64,000 bases of DNA, taken from Rhodothermaceae bacterium Tc-Br11_B2g6_7. Its GTDB lineage: Bacteria; Bacteroidota; Rhodothermia; Rhodothermales; Salinibacteraceae. The position numbers and the translations under genes were made by a program. Under the pieces are notes generated by a model. That model searched no databases. It was not told the DNA's origin and saw only the letters and a program-made list of their open reading frames with translations. The stretch's first letter is position 1, and each line of letters begins with the position of its first letter. The DNA lies in contig LKNB01000008.1 of assembly GCA_001564055.1 (NCBI GenBank), positions 1-64,000 of the forward strand. The letters run 5' to 3'. Positions 24,425-63,098 of the stretch are shown here, piece after piece.

Positions 24425-24495
24425 GGTGGCGTGGCCGAGCGGTTAGGCAGAGGCCTGCAAAGCCTCGTACGGCGGTTCGAATCCGCCCGCCACCT
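24425..24495 (+). tRNA. tRNA-Cys (GCA)
   Basis: A full cloverleaf: acceptor GGTGGCG pairs with CGCCACC (24488-24494), D arm around GCCGAGCGGTTAGGC, anticodon stem GAGGC/GCCTC around loop CTGCAAA giving anticodon GCA, and T arm GGCGG-TTCGAAT-CCGCC. The discriminator base is U, the identity element of bacterial cysteine tRNA. The CCA end is not encoded. Confidence 0.97.
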
Positions 24496-24499
24496 CTTC

Positions 24500-54833: not shown

Positions 54834-54952
54834 ACTCAGGTAGCAGATGATAACATTGGCAATCTGTTACCCAATCGCCGAGCGGATGAAATGATGCACC
54901 CGCGACGTATCATGGCCTTTTTCTCCTCACCCGGAATGCGTTTACCCATTAC

Positions 54953-55010
54953 TCGTCCCCTCCGCCTCGGTGGGGACGCACATTCGGGGACCGTCTCGGT
55001 CCCACGTCGC
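54953..55010 (+). repeat. Palindrome-rich repeat, partial copy A
   Basis: The right half of the repeat seen in full at 55123-55248 and 56022-56144: a CGTCCCC/GGGGACG hairpin and the GGACCG-TCT-CGGTCC hairpin. The loop of the first hairpin differs by one base (CCGCCTCGG for CCGTCTCGG). It lies 69 bases after the first copy of the non-coding stretch before the M20 gene. Confidence 0.85.
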
Positions 55011-55122
55011 GGCCGAAGCTTACCTGTCGGCAAGAATTCCTGCGCGTTCGTACGCAAGAAGCCGTAATGAGATGATTCGAATGGCGCGGATGAAATTGAC
55101 CGGCATTGGCACCGCGCACACG

Positions 55123-55248
55123 GAGCCGAGACGGCTCCAAACGGGCGTCGCGCCCGGGACGGACGCGACGAGCAGCATTTTTTCTTTTCCTCGTCCCCTC
55201 CGTCTCGGTGGGGACGCACATTCGGGGACCGTCTCGGTCCCACGTCGC
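55123..55248 (+). repeat. REP/BIME-like palindromic repeat, full copy B
   Basis: 126 bases holding four hairpins in order: GAGCCG-AGA-CGGCTC, CGTCGCG/CGCGACG with an 11-base loop, a T-rich spacer, CGTCCCC/GGGGACG with an 11-base loop, and GGACCG-TCT-CGGTCC. The nonamer CCGAGACGG or its complement appears three times. It lies 213 bases upstream of the transposase gene. Confidence 0.9.
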
Positions 55249-55460
55249 CGCATCCCTCGAACAAGCGACCAACCCAATCTAAAGTGTGATCGCCGATGGT
55301 TGCCCCCTTCCAGTTATCTCGGTCCTGAGGAAGACCGCCAATACAACCAATTCACCCACCGTCATTGAGGCAAAGTAGTCGACCAACTTTAGCCATGGGA
55401 TATACCCCGCATCCATCATGTGCTGCAGTTTTATGTTTCTTGCGACCAAATCCTCCGGTT

Positions 55461-55994
55461 ATGGGAGACACACGCTATCGTATTTTGGAGCAGCAGGAAC
55501 CGTATTTTCTAACCTGTACCATATCCAGATGGCTACCCATTTTTGCGTACAGCGATGTCGCGCGAATTGTGCTCGACTCGTTGGTCTTTCTGCAAGATGC
55601 TGACCGGCTCACGTTATATGGCTACGTGCTCATGGAAAACCACCTTCACCTCATAGCATCAGCTGAGGATCTCTCGCATGAACTGATGACGTTCAAATCG
55701 TACACAAGCCACGCAGTTATCAACCTACTAAAGGATACTCGACGGACCACACTCCTCCGCATGCTCCCGAGGCCTGCGCGCCCAGATCGAGGCGAACGTG
55801 TCTACCAACTCTGGCAACGGGGAAGTCATCCGAAGCAGATTCTGCAGAAAGATATGTTCTTGCAAAAACTGGAGTACATTCACCTGAATCCTGTAAAGCG
55901 CGGGTACATTGATGAGCCGGTGCACTGGCGCTACTCCAGCGCTCGAAATTATTCCGGACAGCGAGGGCTTATCCCGGTTACTGTAGCGCTGTAG
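55461..55994 (+). CDS. REP-associated tyrosine transposase (Y1/HUH family)
   Basis: 177 residues. The HUH motif is His61 and His63 in VLMENHLHLIASAED and the catalytic tyrosine is Tyr139 in FLQKLEYIHLNPVKRGYI. The start RYRILEQQEPYFLTCTISRW is typical of TnpA_REP/RAYT proteins. These enzymes cut single-stranded REP hairpins and are domesticated in many genomes. The flanking copies B and C of a palindrome-rich repeat match this. The ATG at 55461 (MGDTRYRI) is taken; the longer frame starts at 55365. Confidence 0.92.
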   Translation: MGDTRYRILEQQEPYFLTCTISRWLPIFAYSDVARIVLDSLVFLQDADRLTLYGYVLMENHLHLIASAEDLSHELMTFKSYTSHAVINLLKDTRRTTLLRMLPRPARPDRGERVYQLWQRGSHPKQILQKDMFLQKLEYIHLNPVKRGYIDEPVHWRYSSARNYSGQRGLIPVTVAL

Positions 55995-56021
55995 GTGAAT
56001 CGACGTGGTTTGGTACAGCAT

Positions 56022-56144
56022 GAGCCGAGACGGCTCCAATCATGCGTCGCGCCCGGGACGGACGCGACGAGTAGCACTTTTTCTTTTCCTCGTCCCCTCC
56101 GTCTCGGTGGGGACGCACACCCGGGACCGTCTCGGTCCCACGTC
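56022..56144 (+). repeat. REP/BIME-like palindromic repeat, full copy C
   Basis: 123 bases nearly identical to copy B and in the same orientation, starting 27 bases after the transposase stop. All four hairpins are kept; differences are a few bases and a short deletion near the last hairpin (ACACCCGGGACC for ACATTCGGGGACC). Together with copy B it brackets the transposase as a direct repeat. Confidence 0.9.
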
Positions 56145-56181
56145 AAGGCACAACGCCATCGTGAAACGACGTGCCATCAAT

Positions 56182-56204
56182 TGGAGCCGAGGCGGACGCG
56201 ACGA
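56182..56204 (+). repeat. Truncated copy D of the palindromic repeat
   Basis: GGAGCCGAGGCGGACGCGAC and the next few bases match the left hairpin and the end of the second hairpin of the repeat after internal deletion. It sits just before the end of the APC permease gene and may act in its termination. Confidence 0.5.
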
Positions 56205-56216
56205 GCAGCGCTGTGT

Positions 56217-57533
56217 CTACGCTGACCGAGTAGCCAACCGCTGCGCCACCACATGCCACACCAGCCCAATCGCGATCAGGGCAAGGCCTGTCCCCCAAAT
56301 GACCGGCTCCACCCAGAAGGCAAGGAAGAGGCACCCAATGAGCCCGCCGATCGGGAAGATGGGATGGTAGAGGCGTTCCTCAGCCGAGAGCTGCAACGCC
56401 GAAAGGTTCGTCAGCGCATAGTAGATGAGCACGGTAAAGGCGCTAAACGACCAGGTGGTGCGTACATCACCAATGAGGGTCAGGCCCAGGATAAGGCCTC
56501 CGGTAACGATCACCGCTACCACCGGTGTGGTGCGCGCGGCGTTGAGCGTTGCGGTGGCCCCCGGCATATCGCCCTGTCGGCCCATGGCCAGCATCACGCG
56601 CGAGAGCCCCAGGATAAGATTGAGCAATACACCCAGCATCGCCGTGATCGCGGCCACACTAACGACGAATCCGATACCGGGCGCGGTGAGCGCCTGCGCG
56701 GCTACCTGCAGGGGTGCGGCGTCACCTTCGGCCGCCGCGCCAAGGCCATCCGCGCCGATCGCACCTACCGCAACGACGCTCACCGCCATGTACAGCCCCG
56801 AAACCACGATAACCGTGAGCACGATCGCGCGCGGAATGGTGACCGCCGGATCTTGCACCTCTTCCCCGAGCGTGGCAATGCGCCCGTACCCGGTATACGC
56901 CACAAACATGAGCGCCGTGGCGTGGAAAACGGTCGACCATGGGCTCGCATCAGGCGACTCCGGTGAGGCGAAGAATGGGGCAAGGTTGTCCGCGCCCGTG
57001 GCGAAGAGGTTGGGCAGGCCGCCGACCACAAAGTAGGCCAGCCCCGCCAGCGTAATGGATACGATGGCAATGTTCGTCCAGTTGGAGCGTCGGATACCGC
57101 TCAGCACTACGGCCGTCAGCACCACCACGCCAAGCACCGCCAGCGGCACGAGCCAGGTGGCATCGCCGCCTACCAGCAGCAACAGGTAGCCAGCAAACCC
57201 CAGCGCTGCCGTAGCCGCCGATGCGCTCTTGGCACAGAGAAACATCCAGCCGGCGGTAAAGCCCAGCGACGGACGCAGATACTTGTAGCCGTACGCGTAC
57301 GTGCCCCCGCTCACCGGATGATTGGCGGCCAGCTGCGCGCTGCTAAACGCATTGCACGTGGCCACCATCGCTGCCAGCGCAATCGCCAGAATCACCGCGG
57401 GTCCGGCGATACCCGCAGCAATACCCACGCTCACGAATACGCCCGTACCCACGATTGAGCCCAGGCCCATCATGGTCGCTCCGCCGACGCCAAGAGCCCG
57501 CGTCAGTCGCGGGCCAGAAGACTCATCGCGCAT
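56217..57533 (-). CDS. APC superfamily amino acid permease
   Basis: 438 residues, about twelve membrane helices. The family start is clear (RLTRALGVGGATMMGLGSIVGTGVFVSVG), with the unwound helix 1 GSIVGTGVF, a conserved helix 6 region (VFHATALMFVAYTGYGRIAT LGEEV pattern) and SGGTYAYGYKYLRPSLGF. It imports amino acids, exact kind unknown. The ATG at 57533 (MRDESSGPRL) is used; the upstream extension to 57710 has no family match. Transcribed away from the S9 peptidase gene, with which it shares a 230-base divergent promoter region. Confidence 0.9.
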   Translation of the reverse strand: MRDESSGPRLTRALGVGGATMMGLGSIVGTGVFVSVGIAAGIAGPAVILAIALAAMVATCNAFSSAQLAANHPVSGGTYAYGYKYLRPSLGFTAGWMFLCAKSASAATAALGFAGYLLLLVGGDATWLVPLAVLGVVVLTAVVLSGIRRSNWTNIAIVSITLAGLAYFVVGGLPNLFATGADNLAPFFASPESPDASPWSTVFHATALMFVAYTGYGRIATLGEEVQDPAVTIPRAIVLTVIVVSGLYMAVSVVAVGAIGADGLGAAAEGDAAPLQVAAQALTAPGIGFVVSVAAITAMLGVLLNLILGLSRVMLAMGRQGDMPGATATLNAARTTPVVAVIVTGGLILGLTLIGDVRTTWSFSAFTVLIYYALTNLSALQLSAEERLYHPIFPIGGLIGCLFLAFWVEPVIWGTGLALIAIGLVWHVVAQRLATRSA

Positions 57534-57763
57534 AATCAAGTTGGGCGTAGAGGGGAATCCGAGGCGCTCGTAGTGTAGCCACACAAGCTGCCAATATCTA
57601 CCAACCCCGGAATCCAGTACCCATCTTTTGCGCGTGGAGAGGTTTTGGTGCGATGGACCCTTTCGGACCGCTGTGCTTTCTCTTTGTACTTCGTTACAGC
57701 CGTTGGGCATCTACGCCAGGCGGCCCTTCGCACGTCACGATCTGCAACCCGACCGATCTTCCT

Positions 57764-59812
57764 ATGCTTTCATCTTACTCTTCGCGCCTACGCGCAGCAA
57801 CCGGAGCGCTGGCGCTGCTCTGTGCGCTGCTCTTCCTTCCCACGGCCCTTGCGCAGGGGCTTTCACCAATGGATGTGGCCGAGATTAAAACCGTCACCTC
57901 TGCGACGATTGCGGCAGACGGCCAGCATGTGGCCTACACCGTCTCGGAGCCAGCAGACCCCACCGAAGATAACGTGCCGGCCAGCACGCACCTCTACGTG
58001 ATGGACACCGAAACAGGCGAGGTCACCGCCTCCTACACCGAAAGTGGAGTGGGCAGCGTCGCTTTTCGTCCGGCGCACGGCACCGTGACCTTCCTGACCA
58101 GCGGTGAAGACGACGACGGCCGCGTGCTCTACGAGCTTGCCGTCGACGGGGAGGAGCCGACACGGCTGCTCGGCCACGCCACTTCCATCGCTGCCTACAC
58201 CTGGGCGCCCGATGGCGAGCGCGTTGCCTTTAGCGCAAACGAGGAGCTCGATATTCCCGAAGCCCCGCTCCCCTACCAGCCGGATCTGTTTGAGGAAAAT
58301 CAACCACAACGCCGCGCTTTCATTGCGGACCTCTCAGCCGACACCCCGGAGCCGCACCGCTTTAACGTTGACGGCACCGTCCACCTGATGCGCTGGAGCC
58401 CAGATGGCACCCAACTGGCCATCACCGAAACTCCGACGCCCGGGGTAGATGACTCCTTCATGGCGCAGTCCGTGCAGGTCGTTGATGCCGACTCCCGCGA
58501 CGTCGTAGCCAACATTGCCAACGCCGGAAAGATTGCGCAGATCAAATGGAGCCCCGATGGAGAGCACCTGGCCCTGCGGGCGGGTGACAACATCCACGAT
58601 CCCATTGACGGCCGCATCATGCGGGTTGCCGTAGAAGATGGCGCCATCCCGGAGAACATCCTGCCCGAGTTTGAGGGTAAGTTCGAGCAGATCCTGTGGA
58701 CGGACGATGACACCATCCATTTCCTCGCCAGCGAAAGCACGGCGCGCTCCTTCGGCACCATCGCGCCGGATGGCAGCGACTTCACCCGTATCCTGACAAA
58801 GGACGCTACCGCGTTGGCCAGCTTTACCCCGTCAGGTGCGGGCCACATCGTGTTCACCGCCTCCACACCCGAACACCCGCAAGAGGTGTACCTGCTACGT
58901 GACGGCACTGACAGCCCCGATCGCGTAACGCACCACAACGAGTGGCTCGCCGACCGGCAGCTTGGTACGCAAGAAGTCGTTCGCTACACGGCGCGCGATG
59001 GGCTGTTTGACATCGAAGGGCTGCTCATCTACCCGCTCGACTATGAGGAGGGCACCGCGGTCCCGCTCATCGTGATGGTGCACGGCGGCCCGGAAGCGCA
59101 TTACAGCAACGGCTGGCTGACCAACTACAGCATGCCCGGGCAGGTCGGGGCGGCCGAAGGCTACGCTGTCTTCTACCCGAACTACCGCGGCAGTACCGGA
59201 CGCGGGCTCGACTTTATCCTCAGCAGCCAGGGCGACCTCGCCGGGAAGGAGTTTGACGACATCGTGGATGGTGTCGACTACCTGATCAACCGGGGTATTG
59301 CGGATGAAGACCGCGTCGGCGTCACGGGCGGTTCGTACGGCGGCTACGCCAGCGCCTGGATGAGCACCTACTACTCCCCGCGCTTCGCCGCGGCGGTGAT
59401 GAACGTGGGCATCTCCAACAACATCTCCAAGTGGGGCACAAGCGACATCCCCGAGGAGCTCTACCTCGTCCACTCGCGCACCCGCATCTGGGACTCATGG
59501 GTCGACAACCTCAAGCGCAGCCCCATCTACCACGTGGACAACGCGCAGACGCCGATCCTCATCGCCCATGGCGCCGAGGATACGCGCGTGCACCCCGCGC
59601 AGTCGCTGGAGCTATACCGCCACCTGAAGGTGCGCAAACCTGAGGTGCCCGTGCGCCTGGCCCTGTACCCAGATGAAGGCCACGGCTATATCCGCGCCAG
59701 CGCCCGCCTGGATTATAACCTGCGTATGATGCGCTGGTTTGACACGTATCTGAAGGGGGACGACCCCGAAGCGACGCTGCCAGCCGGTAACGTGGAGGTA
59801 TCTGCCCAGTAA
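57764..59812 (+). CDS. S9 family prolyl oligopeptidase-type peptidase
   Basis: 682 residues. A signal peptide (ALALLCALLFLPTALAQG) precedes a TolB/DPP-type beta-propeller (HVAYTVSEPADPTEDNVPAS, WSPDGTQLAITET, WSPDGEHLALRAG) and a C-terminal alpha/beta hydrolase. The nucleophile is Ser524 in VTGGSYGGYASAW, the acid Asp in HGAEDTRVHP and the His in DEGHGYIRAS. It cleaves dipeptides or short peptides in the periplasm. The start at 57764 gives the signal peptide; the frame opens to 57653. A terminator follows. Confidence 0.92.
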   Translation: MLSSYSSRLRAATGALALLCALLFLPTALAQGLSPMDVAEIKTVTSATIAADGQHVAYTVSEPADPTEDNVPASTHLYVMDTETGEVTASYTESGVGSVAFRPAHGTVTFLTSGEDDDGRVLYELAVDGEEPTRLLGHATSIAAYTWAPDGERVAFSANEELDIPEAPLPYQPDLFEENQPQRRAFIADLSADTPEPHRFNVDGTVHLMRWSPDGTQLAITETPTPGVDDSFMAQSVQVVDADSRDVVANIANAGKIAQIKWSPDGEHLALRAGDNIHDPIDGRIMRVAVEDGAIPENILPEFEGKFEQILWTDDDTIHFLASESTARSFGTIAPDGSDFTRILTKDATALASFTPSGAGHIVFTASTPEHPQEVYLLRDGTDSPDRVTHHNEWLADRQLGTQEVVRYTARDGLFDIEGLLIYPLDYEEGTAVPLIVMVHGGPEAHYSNGWLTNYSMPGQVGAAEGYAVFYPNYRGSTGRGLDFILSSQGDLAGKEFDDIVDGVDYLINRGIADEDRVGVTGGSYGGYASAWMSTYYSPRFAAAVMNVGISNNISKWGTSDIPEELYLVHSRTRIWDSWVDNLKRSPIYHVDNAQTPILIAHGAEDTRVHPAQSLELYRHLKVRKPEVPVRLALYPDEGHGYIRASARLDYNLRMMRWFDTYLKGDDPEATLPAGNVEVSAQ

Positions 59813-59851
59813 TCTGGTGCCTCGTCGCGCTCATCACGAAGCAAGACCAAG

Positions 59852-59880
59852 CCCCCGGCCCGTGCGGTCGGGGGTTTTCT
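59852..59880 (+). terminator. Rho-independent terminator of the S9 peptidase gene
   Basis: CCCCCGGCC pairs with GGTCGGGGG with one G-U pair, around a CGTGC loop, and is followed by TTTTCTATTT. It lies 39 bases after the stop codon. Confidence 0.8.
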
Positions 59881-59962
59881 ATTTCCCGTAGATTAATGCG
59901 CCTTTGACATTTACCCACAACCCCCATATAATTAGAGATATGCGATTTTATTGTTGATGCTA

Positions 59963-60079
59963 CATTCATCCAGAAGGACTGAGGGAGCAGACCCTGTGAC
60001 GTCCTGGCAACCGCCGCCTGCTATGCAGATGCGGAAAGGTGCTACGTTCTGCCTTGCCTTGCGTGAGGGAAGATGAGTG
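59963..60079 (+). promoter_or_regulatory. SAM-I (S-box) riboswitch aptamer
   Basis: P1 is formed by CATTCATC at 59963-59970 and GATGAGTG at 60072-60079 (eight pairs, one G-U). P2 has AGGAC/GTCCT with the kink-turn bases TGA and TGTGAC around GAGGGAGCAGACCCT. The family core GGCAACC and AAGGTGCTA are present, and P3 is CCGC/GCGG. This is the Bacteroidota form of the S-box aptamer. With the terminator at 60112-60151 it forms a transcriptional OFF switch for the TonB receptor gene when SAM is high. Confidence 0.88.
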
Positions 60080-60111
60080 GAGGCTATAGCTTTCGTCTAT
60101 CAGGCGTTTTA

Positions 60112-60151
60112 AGAGCCCCCATTTATCTGTGGATGGGGGCTCTACATTTTT
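60112..60151 (+). terminator. Expression-platform terminator of the SAM riboswitch
   Basis: A perfect 11-bp stem (AGAGCCCCCAT with ATGGGGGCTCT) and 10-base loop, followed by ACATTTTT. It lies 32 bases after P1 of the aptamer and 174 bases before the receptor start, so it can control read-through into that gene. Confidence 0.85.
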
Positions 60152-60324
60152 GCCCCCTTCCGGCCCTCTCTGTAAGATGCGGCAGTGATCCCAAGTTCTT
60201 CGTGGTGAATGTGGTCCAGGCCAGACGCTTCTCGCGTTTGGCAGGCTGGAGCCCTGTAGCTCTCACGGCTGCTGGCTTCGGTCGCAATGCTGCGACTTTT
60301 CCTCACAAGACCGGGCACCTTAGC

Positions 60325-63030
60325 ATGAAACCTTACGCTACGACACTGCTGACCCTACTCCTTTCTGTCTTTTTCACCACCCTGGCCCTCGGCCAAGACC
60401 CCGCAACGCTTACCGGCACGGTAGCAGACGCCCGCGGCGAACCCCTGCCAGGTGCCAACATCGTCGTGGAGGGCGCCGATCGGGGCGCGGCGGTAGGTGC
60501 TGACGGCACGTACCGCATTGACGACATCGCCCCGGGCACGTACACCGTGCGGGTCACCTTTGTCGGGTTTCGGCCAGCGAGCCGCGAGGTTACGCTCGCA
60601 TCGGGCGCCGAGCAAACGGAAAACTTCACACTGCAAGAACGCGCCCTCCGGGGGGAAGAGATCACCGTGACGGTCGGTTCGCGAGCGGCACGCCGGGCAG
60701 CCGGCGAACTGGCGGTGCCGGTGGATGCTTTCTCCGCAGCTGAACTCCAGCGTACGGGCTCCACGGAAGTTGGGATTGTGCTGCAGCAGCTCTCGCCCTC
60801 CATCAACTTCCCCCGGCAGACCGTGGCCGACGGCATGGACGCCCTGCGCCCCTTCACCCTGCGCGGGCTAAGCCCCGATCATACGCTGGTCCTCATTGAC
60901 GGCAAGCGCCGGCATCGCACGGCCCTCGTCAATCGCCTGGGCTCAGGCGTGCAGAAGGGGTCCAGCACCGTGGACCTCAACGCCATTCCGTCCAGCCTGC
61001 TGGGGGGCGTCGAGATCCTGCGGGATGGCGCGGCTGCGCAGTACGGCTCTGATGCCATCGCCGGCGTGGTCAACCTGCGCCTGCGCGAAGGCGCTGTACC
61101 GCTGCGCATCAGCGGGGAAGTGGGCGGCCACGTGACGGATGACTTCGCCAATGACGGCACCACCTACAATCTGGCCGGGTCCTATGGTATTCCGCTGGGC
61201 AACGAGGGCTACTTCAACCTGTTTGGCGAGCTCCGCTTTCGGGACCCCACGAACCGATCGGGAGCGGATCCGCGCGATCAAATTGAGGAAGGCGACGCCG
61301 ACGTCGTATCCGACCAGAGTGGGAATGGCGTGCAGGAAGTCGCCGAGAAAAACAACCCCGTGGCTCAGCCGAACCACGCTTGGGGGAATGGCCAATCCGA
61401 CAACTACTACCTCTGGGGCAACGGGGCTTATCCGGTGGCTGAAAACGCCGAAGTCTACGCCTTCGGCGGCTACAGCTTCCGGGATGGGTTCGGACAGGGC
61501 TTCTACCGACGCGCGCTCGACGGGCGCAACTGGCCATCAATCTACCCGCAGGGCTTTTTGCCTAACTTCGACATCAAAACGACCGATTACTCCGCCGTGG
61601 GTGGTCTGCGCGGCTCGCTCGGCGCATGGGGATACGACCTCAGCGCCCAGACGGGAAGCAACAACTTTGAATACAATATCACCAACTCCCTGAACGTGAC
61701 GCTCGGTCCCGAGTCCACGCAAACGGACTTCTTCGCTGGCACCGTGTCACTGCAGGAATCGGTGGCGCAGCTTGACTTGACGCGTGAGGTGGACGCTGGA
61801 CTGGCGGGCCCATTGAACGTGGCCTTCGGTGGCCTCTTACGGCACGATCGGTACGAGATTGAGGCCGGCGAAGAGGCCTCCTGGATCGACGGACCCGTTA
61901 AGGAGAACCAGAACGGCGGCCGGGCAGCCCCGGGATCGCAGGTCTTCCCCGGCTTCCCACCCAGCACGGAGGTTGACGAGACCCGCACCAACGTGGGCGT
62001 CTACGCCGATCTGGAAGCCGACGTGCTTGAGAACGTGCTGGTGAATGTGGCCGGACGCTTCGAGAACTACAGCGACTTTGGCTCTACAGTAACCGGCAAA
62101 ATTGCGACGCGCTATCAGCCACAGGAATCGCTCGTCTTCCGCGGCGCCGCCAGCACGGGCTTTCGCGCCCCGAACCTGGCCCAGCGCCACTTCTCCCGCG
62201 TTTCCACCACCTTCATCGATGGTGAACCCTTCGAAGTCGGCCTCTTTCGCAATGGCGGCGACGTAGCCAATGCGCTTGGGGTGCCCGAGCTGACGGAGGA
62301 AAAATCCACCAGCGTCAGCGGCGGGCTTACGCTGAGCCCCAACAGTAATCTGTCGATTTCAGTAGACGGCTTCTTCACCGAAATCCGCGACCGTGTTATC
62401 CTGTCCGGTAACCTCTCCGGCGATGAGATCATCGATCTCCTCGAGGAGCAGGGCATCGAGACGGTGCAGCGGGTGCAGGTCTTCTCCAACGCCATCGACA
62501 GCCAGACCTGGGGCCTCGACGTGGCTGCAGACTACAGCACGCTGATCGGCGATGACGCAGTGCTCTACCTCCGGGGCGCTTTCAACTTCACGCGCAACGA
62601 GGTAACGAGCGGCCCGCGCACACCATCGGAGCTTGATCAGGCGTTCGACGAGAGCATCTTCGACCGCGGCGCCCGACTGGAGCTGGAGCGTGAACGCCCA
62701 AAAAGTACAGGCAAATTTACGGTTGAGTACGAACGCGATCCGTTTAGCGCGCTGGTCCGCGCCACCCGGCACGGCGAAACGCTGGTGCCGAGCAGCAACC
62801 CGGATAACGACTTCACGCTCTCGGCCAAAACGCTCTTCGATGCGGAGGTCAGCTACGCCTTCGCCGCCGAGCGTCTGACGCTATCGCTTGGCGTGCGCAA
62901 CCTGATGGACATCTACCCCGACCGCACACCAGACGGGCAGAACTTCAACGGCATCTTTCCCTACTCCACCGCCTCGCCGTTCGGCTTTAACGGCCGGTAC
63001 GTGTACAGCAAGATGGCGTTTACGCTGTAG
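60325..63030 (+). CDS. SAM-riboswitch-controlled TonB-dependent receptor
   Basis: 901 residues. A signal peptide (TTLLTLLLSVFFTTLALGQ) is followed by a carboxypeptidase-regulatory-like domain (about 25-105; DGTYRIDDIAPGTYTVRVTFV), a plug (VDAFSAAELQRTGSTEVG, TLRGLSPDHTLVLIDGKRRH, SLLGGVEILRDGAAAQYGSD) and a long barrel ending in SKMAFTL. The upstream frame opens at 60073 inside the riboswitch and is rejected. As SAM-I controls methionine and sulfur genes, this receptor probably imports a methionine or sulfur compound across the outer membrane (inference). No partner gene follows; a terminator does. Confidence 0.9.
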   Translation: MKPYATTLLTLLLSVFFTTLALGQDPATLTGTVADARGEPLPGANIVVEGADRGAAVGADGTYRIDDIAPGTYTVRVTFVGFRPASREVTLASGAEQTENFTLQERALRGEEITVTVGSRAARRAAGELAVPVDAFSAAELQRTGSTEVGIVLQQLSPSINFPRQTVADGMDALRPFTLRGLSPDHTLVLIDGKRRHRTALVNRLGSGVQKGSSTVDLNAIPSSLLGGVEILRDGAAAQYGSDAIAGVVNLRLREGAVPLRISGEVGGHVTDDFANDGTTYNLAGSYGIPLGNEGYFNLFGELRFRDPTNRSGADPRDQIEEGDADVVSDQSGNGVQEVAEKNNPVAQPNHAWGNGQSDNYYLWGNGAYPVAENAEVYAFGGYSFRDGFGQGFYRRALDGRNWPSIYPQGFLPNFDIKTTDYSAVGGLRGSLGAWGYDLSAQTGSNNFEYNITNSLNVTLGPESTQTDFFAGTVSLQESVAQLDLTREVDAGLAGPLNVAFGGLLRHDRYEIEAGEEASWIDGPVKENQNGGRAAPGSQVFPGFPPSTEVDETRTNVGVYADLEADVLENVLVNVAGRFENYSDFGSTVTGKIATRYQPQESLVFRGAASTGFRAPNLAQRHFSRVSTTFIDGEPFEVGLFRNGGDVANALGVPELTEEKSTSVSGGLTLSPNSNLSISVDGFFTEIRDRVILSGNLSGDEIIDLLEEQGIETVQRVQVFSNAIDSQTWGLDVAADYSTLIGDDAVLYLRGAFNFTRNEVTSGPRTPSELDQAFDESIFDRGARLELERERPKSTGKFTVEYERDPFSALVRATRHGETLVPSSNPDNDFTLSAKTLFDAEVSYAFAAERLTLSLGVRNLMDIYPDRTPDGQNFNGIFPYSTASPFGFNGRYVYSKMAFTL

Positions 63031-63063: not shown

Positions 63064-63098
63064 ACCTCGCCCCGGCTTTGGCTGGGGCGAGGTTTTTT
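63064..63098 (+). terminator. Rho-independent terminator of the TonB receptor
   Basis: A 10-bp stem (ACCTCGCCCC with GGGGCGAGGT) and a ten-base loop, followed by six T residues. It lies 33 bases after the stop and three bases before the end of the convergent hydrolase gene. Confidence 0.9.

Follow-up and report, generated by a model that had tools for sequence, protein, structure and literature searches.

SAM-I (S-box) riboswitches (RF00162), TonB-dependent receptors and the control of transporters by SAM are already known. SAM-I usually stands before genes of methionine biosynthesis or of inner-membrane transport, and the uptake genes described for the methionine regulon, such as those of MetT and MetNIQ under SAM or MetJ control, also encode inner-membrane systems. 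In Bacteroidota a cobalamin riboswitch upstream of BtuB is usual, and many TonB-dependent receptors of Bacteroidota-type bacteria are without a known ligand. According to two papers (PMC3228920, PMC4239095), the gene of this cofactor receptor, btuB, is also controlled in gammaproteobacteria by MetJ, the SAM-sensing methionine repressor.

The locus described here lies in a stretch of 64,000 nucleotides of genome G000 (3.2 Mb, 89% complete), which was analysed as a whole and is called the window below. It shares with the known SAM-I class a full-length aptamer above the gathering score and the logic of P1, antiterminator and terminator, but its target is an outer-membrane receptor and not a gene of methionine biosynthesis or inner-membrane transport. 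As with MetT and MetNIQ, an uptake gene is placed in the methionine regulon, here at the outer and not the inner membrane. As with btuB, a TonB-dependent receptor is linked by its regulator to methionine metabolism, and BtuB is the nearest solved fold, tied with Cir; unlike BtuB, the window receptor scores far below the BtuB cut-offs, and a separate receptor of the genome stands behind a cobalamin riboswitch. In four genomes of other Bacteroidota (G407, G098, G233, G288), SAM-I likewise stands upstream of a TonB-dependent receptor, but these receptors are of the SusC type, which is another family, and come with SusD (and an M14 carboxypeptidase in G407 and G098), whereas no SusD lies beside the window receptor. 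The riboswitch is the ordinary part of the locus, and its target and the receptor family that it marks are the new part. In the open-access literature searched, no paper was found on SAM-I before a TonB-dependent receptor, nor on a family of outer-membrane receptors that SAM-I repeatedly marks, although either may still be published. The locus is best read as a SAM-I attenuator acting on a one-gene receptor transcript, with a methionine or sulfur source as the most likely cargo, a reading to which we give a probability of roughly 0.8.

The preliminary description of this DNA had reported a complete S-box aptamer and had proposed a covariance-model search as the check. The cmscan search of the whole window gave a significant SAM match over the full length of the model (positions 1-108), above the gathering score of 44.4 bits, and the score of 74.8 bits was repeated in the whole-genome search. 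The alignment shows GGCAACC, AAGGTGC and the kink-turn region; beside this conserved core, the pseudoknot between the loop and J3/4 was placed by eye from the alignment (GCAG 59987-59990 with CTGC 60049-60052), and a platform that excludes P1 was found in silico. The only other Rfam match above threshold in the window was its single tRNA gene, a tRNA-Cys (GCA) at 24425-24496. The promoter (Table 1) is the sole site in the 64 kb with at most one mismatch at its spacing of 17 (0.04 expected), and no second promoter-like site was found within 59700-60400. The transcript is predicted to start near 59939, about 24 nt 5' of the aptamer; a start downstream of the aptamer, which had been named as a possible refutation, is not indicated.

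The intrinsic terminator noted earlier was recovered as well, with a folding energy of -23.2 kcal/mol (z -5.6), and the antiterminator stretch 60070-60131 reached -24.2 kcal/mol (z -4.7); in both cases none of 200 shuffled sequences was equally stable. The antiterminator draws a strand from each of the other two structures, the 3' strand from P1 and the 5' arm from the terminator, and so excludes both. At low SAM, this P1 strand would pair downstream and the receptor would be made; when SAM is bound, P1 would close and the terminator would form, turning the receptor off, as the anatomy of the leader suggests. By prediction this is a SAM-OFF transcription switch of textbook type acting on one gene. 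The SAM-repressed expression of the receptor proposed earlier, for which aptamer, promoter, antiterminator and terminator argue well in silico, is very likely right.

As described before, neither a methionine gene nor any other plausible gene lies between the aptamer and the receptor. The gene on the 5' side of the aptamer (57653-59812) encodes an S9-type peptidase, to judge from a weak Dpp5 match and from inspection by eye, and is closed by a terminator-like site at 59849-59877, while the gene 3' of the receptor encodes an isochorismatase-like hydrolase on the opposite strand. Because the preceding gene has its own terminator-like site and the next one runs on the opposite strand, the aptamer seems to serve the receptor gene alone, as a one-gene unit whose transcript probably ends at the hairpin that follows the receptor. 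Elsewhere in the window (54949-56218), repeats 65 and 104 nt long occur two or three times, with parts of them inverted, and flank a 209-aa ORF (55365-55994) that resembles by eye a REP-associated transposase; this may be a RAYT/REP element.

Table 1 Features of the receptor locus with predicted SAM-I control (window positions)
Feature	Position	Strand	Basis
Sigma-70-type promoter, TTGACA-17-TATAAT	59904..59932	+	12/12 consensus letters
SAM-I (S-box) riboswitch aptamer	59963..60079	+	RF00162, 74.8 bits, E 1e-15, full length
Predicted antiterminator, 14 pairs and one mismatch	60071..60128 (60071-60085 with 60114-60128)	+	ViennaRNA
Intrinsic terminator stem-loop, 14-pair stem, then ACATTTTTGC	60112..60143	+	Terminator scan, folding
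Remaining leader, no known RNA family	60144..60324	+	No above-threshold Rfam match
TonB-dependent receptor, 901 aa, signal-peptide-like N-terminus	60325..63030	+	Pfam domains, AlphaFold2 model, structural matches
CarboxypepD_reg-like domain, N-terminal, residues 28-104	60406..60636	+	PF13620, E 3.6e-20
Plug domain, residues 128-248	60706..61068	+	PF07715, E 3.3e-17
Beta-barrel, residues 378-860 in Pfam	61456..62904	+	PF00593, E 1.7e-35
Hairpin 3' of receptor, CCTCGCCCC...GGGGCGAGG, then T run	63065..63098	+	By eye

The ORF of the 901-residue receptor, also present in the preliminary description, was read from the ATG at 60325 to the stop at 63030. The mechanical ORF call begins at the ATG at 60073, and the later start was favoured because the N-terminus from there looks by eye like a signal peptide. 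All three domains passed the Pfam cut-offs, and with its plug (PF07715), barrel (PF00593) and receptor fold (BtuB, Cir and others, Z 38) the protein is a TonB-dependent receptor; EITVTV at residues 112-117, before the plug, is a possible TonB box, picked out by eye. The AlphaFold2 model has the plug-and-barrel form (pLDDT 83.5, pTM 0.80), with barrel strands reaching residue 900. Its top structural matches were tied, BtuB (2guf) with Z 38.2, rmsd 2.6 and 544 aligned residues and Cir (2hdi) with Z 38.1, rmsd 2.6 and 571 aligned residues, and BtuB, Cir and heme receptors stood within about 2 Z of one another (VIA-align). As modelled, the fold picks out no ligand and gives nothing for an amino-acid ligand. 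By sequence the receptor falls short of BtuB (TIGR01779, 62.4 bits where the cut-off is 599.7) and of SusC/RagA (TIGR04056, 79.4 bits against 368.25, with no SusD partner).

SAM-I was found in all 27 genomes of the bacterial family to which the window belongs, at 40 sites, and a TonB receptor is the next gene behind three of these (the window, G013 and G014), with a few contigs of this survey ending before the downstream gene could be read. The three receptors form one receptor family; when G013 and G014 were compared with the window receptor, the receptor concerned ranked second among 26 matches. Across 395 sampled genomes of the phylum, SAM-I occurred somewhere in 314 and the receptor family, at E 1e-90, in 68; among the best 30 SAM-I sites of the phylum search, 25 were classed as methionine genes, at four no forward ORF could be read and the remaining one could not be given an orientation. 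The loci searched for upstream aptamers comprised the matches from the phylum sample, family members from the bacterial family of the window, and 29 loci of a named collection (133 family ORFs, or 129 with identical proteins counted once), and a SAM-I model built from 37 aptamers was used. Among the 125 receptors whose upstream DNA could be read over 600 nt or more, SAM-I lay directly upstream in six (the window, G013, G014, G233, G288 and G352, the last reached via its SAM-I site and not via the receptor search) and was absent in 119. No SAM-I was found upstream of the four nearest relatives (62-64% identical; L131, L102, L104, L151) or in the 29 homologue loci of the named collection, and R1 gave one weak match, in L140 (12 bits, E 0.68), which was taken as chance. 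The aptamers of the five other members all pass the Rfam gathering score, with receptors about 40% (G013/G014) and 34% (G233/G288) identical to that of the window. Terminator-like hairpins follow the aptamer in G013, G014 and G352; none was found after it in G233 and G288.

On a FastTree tree of 107 rows, from which duplicate loci and ORFs below 650 aa were excluded, the SAM-I label required five changes and fell at four separate places, on a tree whose method joins long branches readily, with some flagged and G352 (L290) on a long one. For the G013/G014 branch, a single gain with losses explained the label as well as two gains did. The label clustered no more strongly than shuffled labels (54 of 500 shuffles were as low).

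A gamma-glutamyltransferase adjoins the receptor on the same strand in 15 of the 129 members, six upstream and nine downstream, in several bacterial families, and the two tested both passed the TIGR00066 cut-off. The window receptor belongs to a supported set of 19 tree rows that holds seven members paired in this way, and the same set includes the three distinct loci (L151, L152, L153; 3/129) where mtnA, encoding S-methyl-5-thioribose-1-phosphate isomerase, is the third gene (the single copy tested, in the identical locus L102, scored above cut-off). In a second branch, an L-type amino-acid permease lies downstream in 10/129, on the same strand in four and convergent in six; this branch includes both SAM-I lineages G013/G014 and G233/G288, and the order SAM-I, receptor, permease was read in G233 and G288. 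The amino-acid permease of the window itself (56217-57710, minus strand) was rejected as the family's partner permease, being 21-29% identical where the partners are about 35-95% identical among themselves. A search for MetJ boxes upstream of proteobacterial homologues (eight loci, six gammaproteobacterial and two alphaproteobacterial) gave no convincing tandem box; the best candidate, which overlies the start codon in L117, agrees in 11 of 16 letters.

The recurrence of SAM-I together with gamma-glutamyltransferase, permease and mtnA neighbours points to a sulfur or methionine source as the ligand, which is probably one of the sulfur amino acids or a small peptide that includes one. The receptor would thus import a methionine or sulfur source that otherwise passes slowly through the outer membrane, as the context suggests; candidate cargoes would be amino acids and small peptides or conjugates, gamma-glutamyl ones among them. 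Against a sulfur ligand stand the absence of SAM-I from the 119 relatives, the nearest included, the position of the genome's own gamma-glutamyltransferase elsewhere, the lack of a close copy of the partner permease in G000 and the lack of MetJ boxes in the proteobacterial loci. Of the earlier proposal, a methionine-related or sulfur-containing ligand is thus retained on the strength of the four tree places and the neighbours, with the 119 unpreceded members speaking against it. The accompanying idea that the ligand can be read from regulation alone had to be given up, since methionine regulators also control cofactor receptors, as PMC3228920 states for btuB and MetJ, and since most of the readable family members are without SAM-I.

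In G000 only two SAM-I sites were found, that of the window and C1:16445-16577, which precedes metY, metX, aspartate kinase and asd (gene names by eye); metH is present above cut-off, and the cell seems to make methionine itself as well. This metH bears on the proposal that the receptor carries vitamin B12 (cobamide) and was placed under SAM control because methionine synthase MetH needs B12. The place of BtuB at the head of the structural matches, tied with Cir, and the MetJ control of btuB also fit this proposal. The sole cobalamin riboswitch found in the genome, on contig C39, stands before another TonB receptor, which was read as a fragment of 448 residues and has TonB-B12 as its best NCBIfam model, far below cut-off; none lies upstream of the window receptor, where BtuB of Bacteroidota would usually have one. 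A scan with all of Rfam detected no cobalamin riboswitch in 28 homologous loci, the conserved neighbours included no recognisable B12 gene, and the TIGR01779 score is about a tenth of the cut-off. A B12 transporter is therefore considered unlikely. Slightly less probable still is that the aptamer is a bystander copy, landed before an unrelated receptor and regulating it without physiological sense. The closest homologues are without SAM-I, identity of the window aptamer is 67.5% with the other SAM-I of G000 but 78.9% with those of G005/G006, which belong to another genus, and the two other genomes of the genus hold no close receptor copy (best E 4.5e-22 and 4.5e-30). From this last result a gain of the receptor by transfer, or its loss in the congeners, is possible. 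A chance landing does not readily account for a complete platform and promoter, nor for the same receptor family standing behind SAM-I at four tree places.

A narrower form of the sulfur-source reading takes the cargo to be glutathione or some other gamma-glutamyl compound, which would be cut by a periplasmic gamma-glutamyltransferase. The same-strand adjacency in both gene orders and the place of the window receptor among the paired members favour this form, and G000 does encode one such enzyme, on contig C31, distant from any SAM-I and from the window receptor. The enzyme is not adjacent in the window, however, other family members have the permease as partner instead, and the enzyme may serve the glutamate and not the sulfur moiety, so that we hold this form possible but doubtful. 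A plausible order of ligands is a sulfur amino acid or small peptide, gamma-glutamyl ones included, then cobalamin, then no physiological link. With somewhat more confidence than for glutathione import, though still tentatively, it is proposed that this widespread and so far unnamed receptor family takes up small peptides, gamma-glutamyl ones or others, as a supply of sulfur amino acids and thereby feeds gamma-glutamyltransferase, the L-type permease and methionine salvage, and that SAM-I control was gained about four times separately.

Other outer-membrane receptors were also found behind SAM-I. In 20 genomes, picked for multiple SAM-I sites or known matches so that the shares are not rates, a TonB receptor was the first gene at 8 of 68 SAM-I sites, three being of the window receptor family (L263, L264, L290) and five SusC-like (L253, L286, L299, L306, L308). 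In G407 (L331 2301-9399) and G098 (L317 1598-8700), SAM-I heads an operon of SusC, SusD and an M14 zinc carboxypeptidase, with the order read in both and Pfam assignments made on the G407 copy. This operon is a candidate SAM-controlled system for peptide scavenging, and within 16 kb of its SAM-I G098 also carries a receptor of the window family and a gamma-glutamyltransferase. At L306 (G233) and L308 (G288), a further SAM-I of each genome has behind it a SusC-like receptor and then a SusD-like lipoprotein (by eye). These first-gene receptors and the G407 and G098 operons indicate that SAM-I reaches outer-membrane uptake in several lineages; among those seen, the partners are peptide and amino-acid genes. 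Different targets were noted elsewhere: in G024 (L059 2073-6938), SAM-I stands before an NhaC-like permease, possibly MetT-like by a weak NCBIfam match, and two amidohydrolase-like genes, and at L242, L247, L257 and L262, and at L243, L261 and L281, before peroxiredoxin-like and cysteine-desulfurase-like genes, all in one bacterial family, f20 (gene names by eye).

For the receptor family, regulation that recurs at four places of the tree, together with conserved enzyme and permease neighbours, points to a role in sulfur amino-acid nutrition. SAM-I control, usually placed before biosynthesis genes, extends in several lineages to the outer membrane, SusC-SusD-carboxypeptidase operons included. 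If the receptor family has this role, TonB energy would be spent on the supply of methionine or sulfur, gated by SAM.
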